DNA of 64,000 bases from Acidobacteriota bacterium (GTDB lineage Bacteria; Acidobacteriota; Terriglobia; Acidiferrales; UBA7541). Positions within the stretch are counted from its first letter, which is position 1; each line of letters starts with the position of its first letter. The notes beneath the pieces were generated by a model. The model did not search any database, was not told where the DNA came from, and worked only from the letters and a program-made list of their open reading frames with translations. The translations under genes and the position numbers were made by a program. Shown here in pieces: positions 32,460 through 35,761 of this stretch. Location: positions 62,001 to 126,000 of the forward strand of contig JAFDVY010000001.1 of the NCBI GenBank assembly GCA_018268785.1, in the 5' to 3' direction.

Positions 32460-33227
32460 ATGCTTACAGCCATTACGCGCGCGGTCAGTCCGGCGCTTGC
32501 TGCATGTGAATTGAGTTTTATCGAGCGCGTTCCGATCGATATGGAGAAGGCTCGCAAGCAGCATCAGGCGTACGAAAAGGCCCTCGCCGCACTAGGAGCG
32601 AAGGTGATTTCGCTTCCGGCAGAGACCGAGCTTCCCGATTCGATGTTTGTGGAGGACCCGGCGGTTGTGCTGAGTGAGCTGGCCGTGGTATTTCCGCTGG
32701 GGACGGCGACGCGGCGACGCGAATCGGAATCGCTGGCAACAGCAATTGCGCCGTTTCGAAAGATCGAGTACGTGAAGCTTCCCGGGACCGTGGAAGGCGG
32801 GGACATTCTACGAATCGGCAAGAAGCTGTTTGTGGGATTAACAGCTCGGACGAATGAATGCGGAATCGAACAACTGCGGAAAATCGTCACGCCGTACGGT
32901 TATGAAGCGATTGGTGTTCCGGTGAGTGGATGCCTACATTTGAAATCTGCAGTGACGCATTTGGGAAACAACACGCTTTTGGCAAATCGTAGTTGGTTCG
33001 ACACGACTCCATTTGCGGGACACGAGTGGATTGACGTCGATCCCGGCGAACCGCACGCTGGGAATGCGCTGGCGCTGAGCGGTTCCGTGATTTTTCCAGC
33101 TTCGTTTCCGAAGACGCGAGCGCGAATTGAGGCGAAAGGATATCGAGTGGTGTCGCTGGATATTGCGGAGCTGCAAAAAGCAGAATCTGGGCTTACCTGT
33201 TCCAGCCTGATCTTCGATGCTGGATAA
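32460..33227 (+). CDS. Dimethylarginine dimethylaminohydrolase
   Basis: A 255-residue member of the guanidino-group-modifying superfamily, cytoplasmic. The active site is recognisable: DSMFVEDPAVVL near residue 62 (Glu-Asp), VEGGDILRIG, CLHLKSAVTHLG (His near 160) and TCSSLIFDAG at the C-terminus (nucleophile Cys near 249). DDAH hydrolyses N-omega-methylated arginines to citrulline and methylamines. This sequence fits DDAH better than arginine deiminase, which is much longer. It ends 80 bases before the promoter of the aspartate-kinase operon. No functional link is evident. Confidence 0.9.
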   Translation: MLTAITRAVSPALAACELSFIERVPIDMEKARKQHQAYEKALAALGAKVISLPAETELPDSMFVEDPAVVLSELAVVFPLGTATRRRESESLATAIAPFRKIEYVKLPGTVEGGDILRIGKKLFVGLTARTNECGIEQLRKIVTPYGYEAIGVPVSGCLHLKSAVTHLGNNTLLANRSWFDTTPFAGHEWIDVDPGEPHAGNALALSGSVIFPASFPKTRARIEAKGYRVVSLDIAELQKAESGLTCSSLIFDAG

Positions 33228-33307
33228 GAACTATGGCGGCTCCAGTGCCTGGAGCGGCCGCGTCGGGCCACAGTGTAAGCCAGGCATCGCCCGTACCAAA
33301 TTTTCTT

Positions 33308-33335
33308 TTGACAATGTTCGCGCGTGTGATAGTTT
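33308..33335 (+). promoter_or_regulatory. Sigma70-type promoter of the leader-lysC-asd operon
   Basis: TTGACA at 33308-33313 is a perfect -35. After a 16-base spacer TAGTTT at 33330-33335 could be the -10, preceded by TG (extended -10). The start point would be about 33342, only three bases before the first in-frame ATG of the leader ORF and about 48 bases before the second. Confidence 0.55.
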
Positions 33336-33344
33336 TGGATAGGC

Positions 33345-33461
33345 ATGTTGTCTCTCGCCAACTCGAAGCGCGGCGCGTCGTCCATATCCATGGCGACGAC
33401 CACTATTATTACGACTACGATTACGACTACCGGCGCTTCCGGCGAGGGGAGAAACAGCTAA
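33345..33461 (+). CDS. Threonine/isoleucine-rich leader peptide (thrL-like)
   Basis: A short ORF of 38 codons from ATG 33345, or 23 from the internal ATG 33390, ending at TAA 33459-33461. From 33390 it reads MATTTIITTTITTT then GASGEGRNS: nine Thr and three Ile codons in the twelve codons 33396-33431. E. coli ThrL has the same kind of run before thrA. The ORF is followed by a terminator hairpin and then aspartate kinase and asd. Stalling at Thr or Ile codons would leave GGCGAGGGG (33441-33449) free to pair with the left arm of the terminator. The 33345 ATG may be nearly leaderless, and neither start has a strong ribosome site. Confidence 0.85.
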   Translation: MLSLANSKRGASSISMATTTIITTTITTTGASGEGRNS

Positions 33462-33481
33462 GCAAACTAGCCAAAGTTTCC

Positions 33482-33524
33482 AAACCCACCGCCAGAAGCA
33501 AACCGGCGGTGGGTTTCTTCTTTT
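33482..33524 (+). terminator. Attenuator terminator upstream of aspartate kinase
   Basis: AAACCCACCGCC (33482-33493) pairs perfectly over 12 bp with GGCGGTGGGTTT (33505-33516), with an 11-base loop, followed by CTTCTTTT. It begins 21 bases after the leader stop codon and ends 63 bases before the aspartate kinase start. The segment GGCGAGGGG inside the leader can pair with CCCACCGCC at seven of nine positions and would form the competing antiterminator. Confidence 0.88.
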
Positions 33525-33587
33525 ACCCCCTCCGGAAAAATGAAAGCGGTGCTCCCTGGAAACCACAAACCATAAGGAGCAGTCGTG

Positions 33588-34631
33588 ATGAGTCCGGAGA
33601 ACGTTCAAGAGGAAGCGCAATACGAAGACCAGTGCGGCCGCATGTTCACGGGAACATACGCGGAACTTGCGCTGGAATCGCAGAGCGGTGTAGTGGCGTT
33701 CAAGTTTGGCGGGACGTCGCTGCTCGGGGCGAAGCGCATGTTGCACGCGGCAGGATTGGTGAAGAGCGCGGCGCAAACTGCGCGCGTGGTTGTGGTGGTC
33801 TCAGCCATGAAGGGAGTGACGGATCAGTTGCTCGCCCTGGCGAAGCTGGTGGACTCCGGAAATTTGGCCGATGCAAAGCGCAAAGCGGATGCGCTGCTGC
33901 GCGCGCACTCGGACGTGCTTGCTGAATTGCAGCTCGATGAACTGGATCACCAGCGCGTTTGGAATGACTTGCGATTGCTGGGGCGGGATTTGTTGCATGA
34001 AGTTTCCGCGCCGCCGCGCGTGAGCAGCGAGGCGTTGCATGACTCGCTCGCTTCCTTTGGCGAAAGATTCAGCGCGCGACTCTTTGCTGCGGCCCTGGAT
34101 GCGTGCGACGTTCCGTCGGCGCCTGTGGCTTCCTCGGAATTTGTGCTGACTTGCGATACGTTTCGCGACGCAAAGCCGGACCTGGCAGAGACACGCGAGC
34201 GGGGGCGGGATGTATTGCAACCCCTGTTGGAAAGCGGACTCGTTCCTGTAGTTACAGGATTTGTGGGAGCTACCCGCGACGGCCGCGTGACGACACTCGG
34301 ACGAAACAGCTCGGATTACTCAGGCGCAATCATCGCGCACGTGGTGAATGCAGATGAACTGGTCATCTGGACCGACGTGGATGGAGTCTTCACCGCAAAC
34401 CCCAATGAATCGAGGGAAGCCCGGCTACTGCACCAGTTATCCTACGAGGAAGCCCACGCACTAGCCGCTGCTGGAGCCAAAGTCTTGCATGAGGATGTGT
34501 TACCGCTCGCGGCGGAATCGGAAATGGTGGTGTGGGTGCGCAACACGTTTAATCCGGAATTTCGGGGAACGCGGATTGGGCCGGCAATGAATCGAATGGC
34601 GCAAGAAAATCTCCAACGAGGTGATGCATGA
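33588..34631 (+). CDS. Aspartate kinase lacking ACT domains
   Basis: A 347-residue enzyme catalysing ATP-dependent phosphorylation of aspartate, the first step to Lys, Thr, Met and Ile. The amino-acid-kinase fold is complete: KFGGTS at residues 39-44, VVVVSAMKGVTDQLL, SFGERFSARL, TGFVGATRDGRVTTLGRNSSDYSG and TDVDGVFTANPNE. The chain stops right after VRNTFNPEFRGTRIGP, where two ACT domains normally begin, so allosteric inhibition by end products is not expected. AAGGAG precedes ATG 33588 (GTG 33585 is also possible). It overlaps asd (ATGA). Control probably lies in the leader attenuator. Confidence 0.93.
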   Translation: MSPENVQEEAQYEDQCGRMFTGTYAELALESQSGVVAFKFGGTSLLGAKRMLHAAGLVKSAAQTARVVVVVSAMKGVTDQLLALAKLVDSGNLADAKRKADALLRAHSDVLAELQLDELDHQRVWNDLRLLGRDLLHEVSAPPRVSSEALHDSLASFGERFSARLFAAALDACDVPSAPVASSEFVLTCDTFRDAKPDLAETRERGRDVLQPLLESGLVPVVTGFVGATRDGRVTTLGRNSSDYSGAIIAHVVNADELVIWTDVDGVFTANPNESREARLLHQLSYEEAHALAAAGAKVLHEDVLPLAAESEMVVWVRNTFNPEFRGTRIGPAMNRMAQENLQRGDA

Positions 34632-35761
34632 GCGGCCCCAGCAAGGGATCGGACAAGCGGTTTGAGAGAAAGTTCCGGGCCGGAGTGCTTGGCGCAACTG
34701 GAATGGTCGGGCAGCGGTTCGTCCGCATGCTGGCGAATCATCCGTGGTTTGAGTTGGCGGAACTGGCGGCGTCGGAACGGTCGTCGGGAAAAAAGTACGG
34801 CGATGTGGTGAAGTGGCACCTCGACTCGCCGATTCCGGAAGCCGCGCGCGATCTGCTCGTGAAAGAGCTTGCGCCGAATCTGGATTGTGATTTTGTGTTT
34901 TCGGCGCTGGATTCGAGTGTGGCCGGGCCTGCCGAAGAGGATTTCGCGCGCGCGGGATATCCCGTGCTGAGCAATTCCAAAAATCATCGGATGGATCCAG
35001 ATGTTCCTCTACTCATTCCGGAAGTGAATTCCGCGCATTTGGATGCAATTGCCGTGCAGCAGAAAAATCGGGGCTATGACGGTGGATTCATCGTAACCAA
35101 TCCCAATTGCTCGACGGCAGGATTGGTGCTGGTGCTGAAGCCGCTGGCGGATGCTTTTGGCCTCGAAAAGATTTTTGTGGTGACCATGCAAGCGGTATCC
35201 GGGGCAGGGTATCCGGGCGTGGCTTCGCTCGATATTCTGGGGAACGTCGTGCCGTTCATCAGTGGAGAAGAAGAAAAGATGGAAGAGGAGCCGCAAAAGC
35301 TGCTCGGGAAGTGGGACGGCTCGCGCTTTGTCGAAGCGGGCATGGGCATCAGCGCTCATTGCAATCGTGTGCCGGTGCGCGACGGACACATGGAGTGCGT
35401 TTCGCTCAGTTTGAAAAAGATTGCCAGCATTCACGAAGTGGCGGAAGTCCTGCGGGATTTTGCGGTGGATGACGAGCTAGCTTCCCTTCCGACAGCAGTG
35501 CGCAATCCAGTTGTTGTGGTAGAGGAGGACAACCGGCCGCAGCCTCGGCGCGATGCAGATGCCGGGAACGGAATGGCTGCCGTCGTTGGCCGCATCCGCG
35601 AATGTTCACTGCTGGATGTGAAGCTCACGCTGCTGTCGCACAATCTGGTGCGTGGAGCGGCGGGCGCGGCGGTATTGAATGCCGAACTCCTAGCCGTTCG
35701 CGGCTACCTTCAACATCGCGTTGCAGTTCCGTTACCTGTTGCCGAGCCAATCCCACGCTAG
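34628..35761 (+). CDS. asd: Aspartate-semialdehyde dehydrogenase (archaeal/fungal-type)
   Basis: A 377-residue enzyme reducing aspartyl phosphate to aspartate semialdehyde with NADPH. The NADP fold is at GVLGATGMVGQRFVRML (residues 19-35) and the catalytic Cys in TNPNCSTAGLVL near 158. MQAVSGAGYPG, the substrate His in AHCNRVPVRDGHMEC, and HNLVRGAAGAAVLNAELL at the end follow. The sequence belongs to the archaeal/fungal-like class rather than the E. coli class. It is translationally coupled to aspartate kinase through an ATGA overlap, so both answer to the attenuator. Confidence 0.95.
   Translation: MSGPSKGSDKRFERKFRAGVLGATGMVGQRFVRMLANHPWFELAELAASERSSGKKYGDVVKWHLDSPIPEAARDLLVKELAPNLDCDFVFSALDSSVAGPAEEDFARAGYPVLSNSKNHRMDPDVPLLIPEVNSAHLDAIAVQQKNRGYDGGFIVTNPNCSTAGLVLVLKPLADAFGLEKIFVVTMQAVSGAGYPGVASLDILGNVVPFISGEEEKMEEEPQKLLGKWDGSRFVEAGMGISAHCNRVPVRDGHMECVSLSLKKIASIHEVAEVLRDFAVDDELASLPTAVRNPVVVVEEDNRPQPRRDADAGNGMAAVVGRIRECSLLDVKLTLLSHNLVRGAAGAAVLNAELLAVRGYLQHRVAVPLPVAEPIPR

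Follow-up and report, generated by a model that had tools for sequence, protein, structure and literature searches.

A predicted threonine-codon attenuator ahead of an ACT-less aspartate kinase gene in the genus of 'Ca. Acidiferrum' (Acidobacteriota)

Descriptions of amino-acid attenuators come mainly from gammaproteobacteria. The closest described relative in function of the element considered here is E. coli thrL of the thrL-thrABC operon (RF00506, Thr_leader), in which a leader with Thr and Ile codons stands directly ahead of an aspartate kinase gene, and the last segment within the leader ORF can pair with the 5′ arm of the terminator (GGTGCGGGC / GCCCGCACC in E. coli). A survey of Rfam leader motifs suggested that these originated in the gammaproteobacteria (PMC3766115), and another survey notes that a function is known for hardly any of the attenuators that have been predicted in Acidobacteria (PMC2965389). 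In the Actinobacteria, Cys-rich leader ORFs precede cys operons with no conserved terminators, and no conserved RNA structure was reported before threonine operons (PMC1262725). Our literature search, which was incomplete, found no paper on threonine or leader-peptide attenuators in Acidobacteria.

The element described here lies in a 64,000-nt window of the 4.24-Mb genome of a soil bacterium of the Acidobacteriota (GCA_018268785.1, contig JAFDVY010000001.1, positions 62,001-126,000), immediately before genes for aspartate kinase (ak) and aspartate-semialdehyde dehydrogenase (asd), whose products catalyse the two opening steps of the route to threonine, isoleucine, methionine and lysine. On comparative grounds it is very probably a ribosome-mediated transcription attenuator. 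It resembles thrL in its Thr/Ile-codon leader, in the pairing of the end of that leader with the terminator and in its predicted on/off logic. It differs in that it precedes a separate kinase without ACT domains, followed by asd, rather than the fused kinase/homoserine dehydrogenase gene thrA of thrABC, in having almost no 5′ untranslated region, and in the Lys, Met and Ser codons that are added in its relatives.

The leader and the genes downstream

The features of the locus are collected in Table 1. The Thr/Ile mini-ORF picked out in a preliminary description of this DNA is present in the sequence with the codon run and stop assigned to it, and the perfect hairpin that follows, with its U-rich tail (CTTCTTTT), is confirmed by sequence and folding; an automatic terminator scan had missed this hairpin because it accepts only loops of 8 nt or less. 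The same description named aspartate kinase and asd as the downstream genes, an assignment that the Pfam domains of both products uphold. An uninterrupted run of 12 AYN codons (Thr/Ile/Met-type) occurs at a single place in the 4.24-Mb genome when both strands and all frames are searched, and that place is the leader run.

Table 1. Positions of the attenuator features and downstream genes in the 64,000-nt window
Feature	Positions	Strand	Details
Likely promoter	33308-33335	+	TTGACA 33308-33313, 16-nt spacer, TAGTTT 33330-33335; putative function
Leader peptide ORF	33345-33461	+	38 codons, product MLSLANSKRGASSISMATTTIITTTITTTGASGEGRNS, stop TAA 33459-33461
Segment 1 (protector arm)	33351-33373	+	UCUCUCGCC..GAAGCGC; leader codons 3-9; partner segment 2
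Regulatory codon run	33396-33431	+	9 Thr and 3 Ile codons, uninterrupted
Segment 2	33434-33455	+	CGCUUCCGGCGAGGGGAGAAAC; last codons of the leader; partner segment 1 or segment 3
Segment 3	33476-33499	+	GUUUCCAAACCCACCGCCAGAAGC; antiterminator 3′ arm; spans the terminator 5′ arm and reaches into its loop
Intrinsic terminator	33482-33524	+	perfect 12-bp stem 33482-33493/33505-33516, 11-nt loop, U-rich tail 33517-33524
Aspartate kinase without ACT domain (ak)	33585-34631	+	Pfam AA_kinase only
Aspartate-semialdehyde dehydrogenase (asd)	34628-35761	+	Pfam Semialdhyde_dh, Semialdhyde_dhC; overlaps the kinase gene

The preliminary description began the element at 33308, which is the first base of the TTGACA box. 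A TG at 33327-33328 (TGA) ahead of TAGTTT provides an extended −10, and the motif TGnTAnnnT is found in all 30 of the same-genus loci compared below, against 2.9 % of random 75-nt stretches from the same loci, its end lying mostly 6–10 nt 5′ of the leader's first start codon. Because of this placement transcription should begin a few nucleotides before the leader start codon, near 33341-33344 in the window, leaving almost no 5′ untranslated region, and the ribosome would therefore trail RNA polymerase closely. An arginine deiminase / DDAH-like gene (32460-33227, + strand) lies just 5′ of the attenuator.

The likelier start of the kinase gene is the ATG at 33588, which has an AGGAG at 33575-33579. 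By Pfam, ACT domains are absent from the attenuated kinase of the window and from those of nine relatives; a paralogous kinase of the same genome carries ACT_9, ACT_7 and ACT. ACT domains are the carriers of feedback inhibition in aspartate kinases, and since the attenuated enzyme is without this regulatory domain, some of the control by end products has probably passed to the attenuator; allostery may have been lost together with the gain of the attenuator.

A search for homoserine dehydrogenase (PF00742) did not find it in the window's genome, which is 94 % complete, or in 18 others, so that about half of the genus (19 of 36 genomes) gave no hit; a second search, made with one homologue from the genus and covering 25 of these genomes, agreed. 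Threonine synthase was detected in every genome searched. Homoserine dehydrogenase is needed to make threonine from the aspartate kinase pathway, and strains in which it was not detected may either use a different enzyme or take up threonine, in which case lysine and diaminopimelate would be the main products for which they need ak-asd; which of the two holds bears on the purpose of the attenuator. In the loci checked, none of hom, thrC and the paralogous kinase gene had a Thr leader ahead of it.

Conservation and alternative pairings of the leader RNA

The window's genome belongs to the genus of 'Ca. Acidiferrum', and the closest named genomes in which the kinase occurs are metagenome assemblies of Terriglobia/Acidobacteria, one of which is 'Candidatus Acidiferrum typicum'. 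Thirty loci were compared: that of the window and 29 from 35 further genomes of the genus, each of the 29 with a close relative of the short kinase (60–72 % identity) and with upstream sequence present. The comparison with related ak-asd operons to which the preliminary description had pointed bears it out, in that a Thr-rich leader ORF and a hairpin stand ahead of ak in all 30, one of these copies being decayed. The leader frame is open throughout (30/30; the remaining frames are open in 11/30 and 5/30), its product in the relatives is typically MLSIATKRITSKSSMSTTSTTTKKTISASGAWRNS, the leader stop lies 18–24 nt from the stem everywhere except in the decayed copy, and asd follows in 28/28 loci with enough sequence. 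A chance juxtaposition of a simple-sequence Thr/Ile stretch and an unrelated terminator might be entertained because ACG/ACT low-complexity stretches turned up elsewhere in a class-wide codon-pattern search, the pattern of which missed the window's own copy (TAA rather than TAG) and nearly all known members; the retention of one architecture in every same-genus genome in which the operon was found refutes it, and its probability is practically nil.

A covariance model of segments 2–4 matched 35 of the 36 genus genomes, 33 of them at 87 bits or more. The only match in one genome (G020) is weak and of the cysteine type discussed below. The copy in G004 (L033, contig C10, 50.7 bits) is probably decayed: its GAAAC block and U-tract are gone, the stem has an A.C mismatch and the stop is shifted. 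In three genomes (G002, G007 and G019) the Thr attenuator lies directly 5′ of asd and the ACT-less kinase gene is missing. Over 396 Acidobacteriota genomes the model gave a strong match in the window's own genome only; the other 12 matches (27–37 bits) are other leaders or plain terminators, and a wide distribution of the element was rejected. In 20 loci of other families and orders, no convincing Thr leader was found before ACT-type aspartate kinases.

As read from its sequence, the leader RNA is a full four-segment attenuator, in which three mutually exclusive pairings form a protector (1:2), an antiterminator (2:3) and a terminator (3:4). An ORF with end-product codons is followed by a predicted terminator located between it and the first structural gene, and the antiterminator both excludes that terminator and has its 5′ arm where a ribosome at the stop codon would lie. 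Segment 1, which in most relatives is UCCAUCGCCACGAAGCG, nearly duplicates segment 3 (TCCATCGCCACGAAGCGAA vs CCCACCGCCAGAAGCGAA), which is what competition of the two for segment 2 would lead one to expect. Segment 2 has the consensus blocks CGCUUC.GGCG.GUGG.GAAAC and ends 3 nt 5′ of the leader stop codon; segment 3, GUUUC..CCCACCGCC.GAAGCG, starts about 15 nt past that stop, and a stretch of U residues comes after segment 4, GGCGGUGGG. In the conserved antiterminator CGCUUC, GGCG, GGG/GUGG and GAAAC of segment 2 face GUUUC, CCC/CCAC, CGCC and GAAGC of segment 3. The preliminary description had paired GGCGAGGGG (33441-33449) with the left arm of the terminator, CCCACCGCC; the two do pair, though by merely 4+3 bp around a 2×2 mismatch, and the antiterminator it proposed exists in a larger conserved form that extends into the terminator loop. 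Its scheme of two stems was incomplete, the protector stem having been overlooked.

The 2:3 duplex is better in energy than shuffled controls in 30/30 loci and the 1:2 duplex in 27/30 (p ≤ 0.03), segment 1:2 being no better than shuffles in L031, L032 and L033. Segments 1 and 2 also co-vary: the mean energy of their pairing is −24.0 kcal/mol within species and −21.8 kcal/mol when segments are swapped between species, and none of 20,000 permutations was as good, these permutations taking no account of relatedness. In the terminator stem an A-U pair has become G-C by compensatory change in three relatives; that further stem changes are few is unsurprising, because the segment has to pair in two ways. 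Conservation and co-variation of the alternative stems, which the preliminary description had singled out as informative, are thus both seen.

The leader ORF has a promoter-like element and a terminator of its own, and might be taken for an independent small-protein gene with a constitutive terminator, ak-asd being transcribed from a separate promoter. The ends of the peptide are, however, conserved where the RNA pairs, and its middle is Thr-rich and otherwise free in sequence and length; this and the co-variation of segments 1 and 2 argue against a small-protein gene. A sigma-70 scan found no site in 33000-33800, though it missed TTGACA/TAGTTT too, which falls below its threshold. We consider such a gene exceedingly unlikely.

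The stalling and termination logic of the preliminary description is supported by the comparative genomics, through the conserved codon run, the alternative pairings and the operon context. When charged tRNAs are plentiful the ribosome would reach the stop codon and cover segment 2, so that segments 3 and 4 would pair and RNA polymerase would terminate ahead of ak-asd. When charged tRNA-Thr or tRNA-Ile is scarce (in the relatives perhaps those for Lys and Met too), the ribosome would stall on the run and disrupt segment 1; segment 2, once freed, would pair with segment 3, no terminator would form and ak-asd would be transcribed. If the leader is not translated, segment 1 would sequester segment 2 and termination would follow by default.

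Folding calculations in which segment 4 was not yet made gave the 2:3 pairing a median probability of 0.80 with a ribosome footprint on the codon run and of 0.31 with the footprint at the leader stop, and an equilibrium median of 0.87 with no ribosome; for the full-length leader RNA at equilibrium the terminator was favoured in most states. Equilibrium folding alone was rejected as the source of the switch, since 2:3 still forms without a ribosome. The switch must therefore be kinetic, as in known attenuators, and default termination would rely on 1:2 forming first. The footprint calculation backs the mechanism only in part.

Attenuators of such a layout could also act on translation, with stalling unmasking the start site of ak rather than preventing termination, and the minimum free energy structure of the whole leader does fold the region around the ak Shine-Dalgarno sequence. 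The conserved hairpin nevertheless has the make-up of an intrinsic terminator, a stem rich in GC followed by a U-rich tail, and its distance from the ak start varies among the relatives. Both features speak against translational control, which seems very unlikely here.

Codon content of the leader run

The preliminary description saw the leader as specific for threonine and isoleucine. This holds for the 12-codon core in the window, which contains Thr and Ile codons only, and does not hold for the relatives, whose runs are rich in Lys, Met and Ser too. Among the 555 codons of 30 leader runs, Thr accounts for 40 %, Ser 24 %, Ile and Lys 11 % each and Met 6.5 %; no codon for His, Gln, Tyr, Asp or Glu occurs in these 30 runs, and those for Leu, Val and Asn are almost missing. 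Thr is enriched 7.4-fold in the runs (P ~1e-129, for sequences that are not independent).

The same attenuation mechanism could thus sense all of the amino acids derived from aspartate kinase (Thr, Ile, Met and Lys). All four are made via this enzyme, so sensing them would fit control of the common trunk. Lys and Met codons are 2.5-fold and 4.4-fold over background in the 30 runs, and parsimony on the aspartate kinase tree counts 13 Thr-Lys and 6 Thr-Met changes and no Thr-Asn change, even though the codons ACT and ACC, from which a single change leads to Asn, are more numerous than ACG, from which one leads to Lys or Met. Against this, Ser is enriched as well and is not derived from aspartate, Lys (AAG) and Met (ATG) are a single step from ACG, one Met sits in the conserved SSMS, and the alignment of the codon run is gappy and the leader sequences, being related, are not independent. 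Because of the misfit of Ser and the single step from ACG to AAG or ATG, we give sensing of the whole family slightly less than an even chance. A relation of the Lys codons to the loss of homoserine dehydrogenase was considered and set aside: by eye they are slightly commoner without hom, an impression confounded with relatedness. In the Pasteurellales the thrA leader reportedly was predicted, in work of Vitreschak and colleagues from 2004, to respond to Met besides Thr and Ile. That case is said to involve one kinase serving the whole family, encoded by the gammaproteobacterial fused thrA, and not to include Lys.

A scaffold shared with cysteine attenuators

Rfam Thr_leader (RF00506; gathering threshold 55 bits) has no match in the window, and none at E-values up to 10 in 33300-33640; E. 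coli thrL, as a positive control, scores 122.1 bits against the same model. The covariance model built from the acidobacterial attenuator has no match in E. coli, and the window's leader has no Rfam match to T-box, lysine, SAM or other riboswitch families. Membership of Thr_leader, T-box or riboswitch families was ruled out by this lack of matches.

The weak secondary matches of our model in the genus are cysteine leaders with the same terminator core. Within the window's genome, 17 of 18 nt near the ATG are identical between the Thr leader and the Cys leader (GTCTCTCGCCAA[C/G]TCGAA), at an equal distance from that codon, and the two have a common terminator, ACCCACCGCCAGAA...GGTGGGTTT; for either block, none of 2000 shuffles was as similar. 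The Cys attenuators of the genus differ from the Thr one in their codons, which are for Cys, and in the downstream gene, which is for thiosulfate sulfurtransferase, cysD/cysN or tRNA-Cys. Thiosulfate sulfurtransferase and cysD/cysN are the genes preceded by L189-L191, L193-L196, L197-L211, L213 and L214, and in four of these loci (L197, L198, L208 and L210) tRNA-Cys lies downstream of the attenuator and sulfurtransferase gene. At L212/L215, in the window's genome (G000:C241, terminator stem 32993-33022, minus strand), a Cys-codon leader ending in MTSLAKSNVATRLCCRCWGLIRSGEGRLIP stands 45 nt 5′ of a tRNA-Cys gene called by ARAGORN (anticodon GCA), which is possibly controlled by stalling on its own codons. 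As far as we have searched, the Cys attenuators of this genus have not previously been described. They resemble the actinobacterial leaders (PMC1262725) in that a short ORF ahead of a pathway operon contains a run of cognate codons.

Other leaders were noted in other families of the Acidobacteriota. Leaders with runs of five to seven Cys codons and a terminator stand ahead of cysG/cysH or cysH/sulfite reductase genes in L155 and L157-L159, and in L153 a rhodanese-like gene follows a leader with several Cys codons. In another family, L150 (G360:C2:37577-37672, minus strand) has the leader MSHVGQNTVGVLLLIGVSVVLLITPVLAGRT and a terminator before ilvD, and is likely to be a branched-chain amino acid attenuator.

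The scaffold common to the Thr and Cys leaders suggests an exchange of codon cassettes, and a common scaffold with exchanged codons, as the simplest reading, would place the origin of the Thr attenuator inside the phylum. The preliminary description spoke of the same device as in E. coli, arisen by convergence or widely distributed. The two would work alike, and on present evidence they are not homologous, given the lack of an Rfam match and the different scaffold. Convergence is preferred to a wide distribution of thrL, because Thr_leader is not matched and the scaffold matches that of the genus's own cysteine attenuators. From these comparisons, we judge an origin independent of thrL to be probable. 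A fuller account can be offered tentatively, the odds being somewhat against all of its parts holding together: one scaffold of the genus carries an exchangeable codon cassette, and its Thr member arose in the Acidobacteriota independently of thrL, reads all four amino acids derived from aspartate semialdehyde and serves a kinase that has lost its allostery.

The element and its paralogues point to an acidobacterial lineage of attenuators that is conserved through the genus and modular in specificity. They would offer a concrete case in which new specificities arise when codons are exchanged on an RNA scaffold that stays fixed. The attenuator is also paired with a kinase whose regulatory domain has been lost, and this may be a shift of control, open to testing, from the protein to the RNA.
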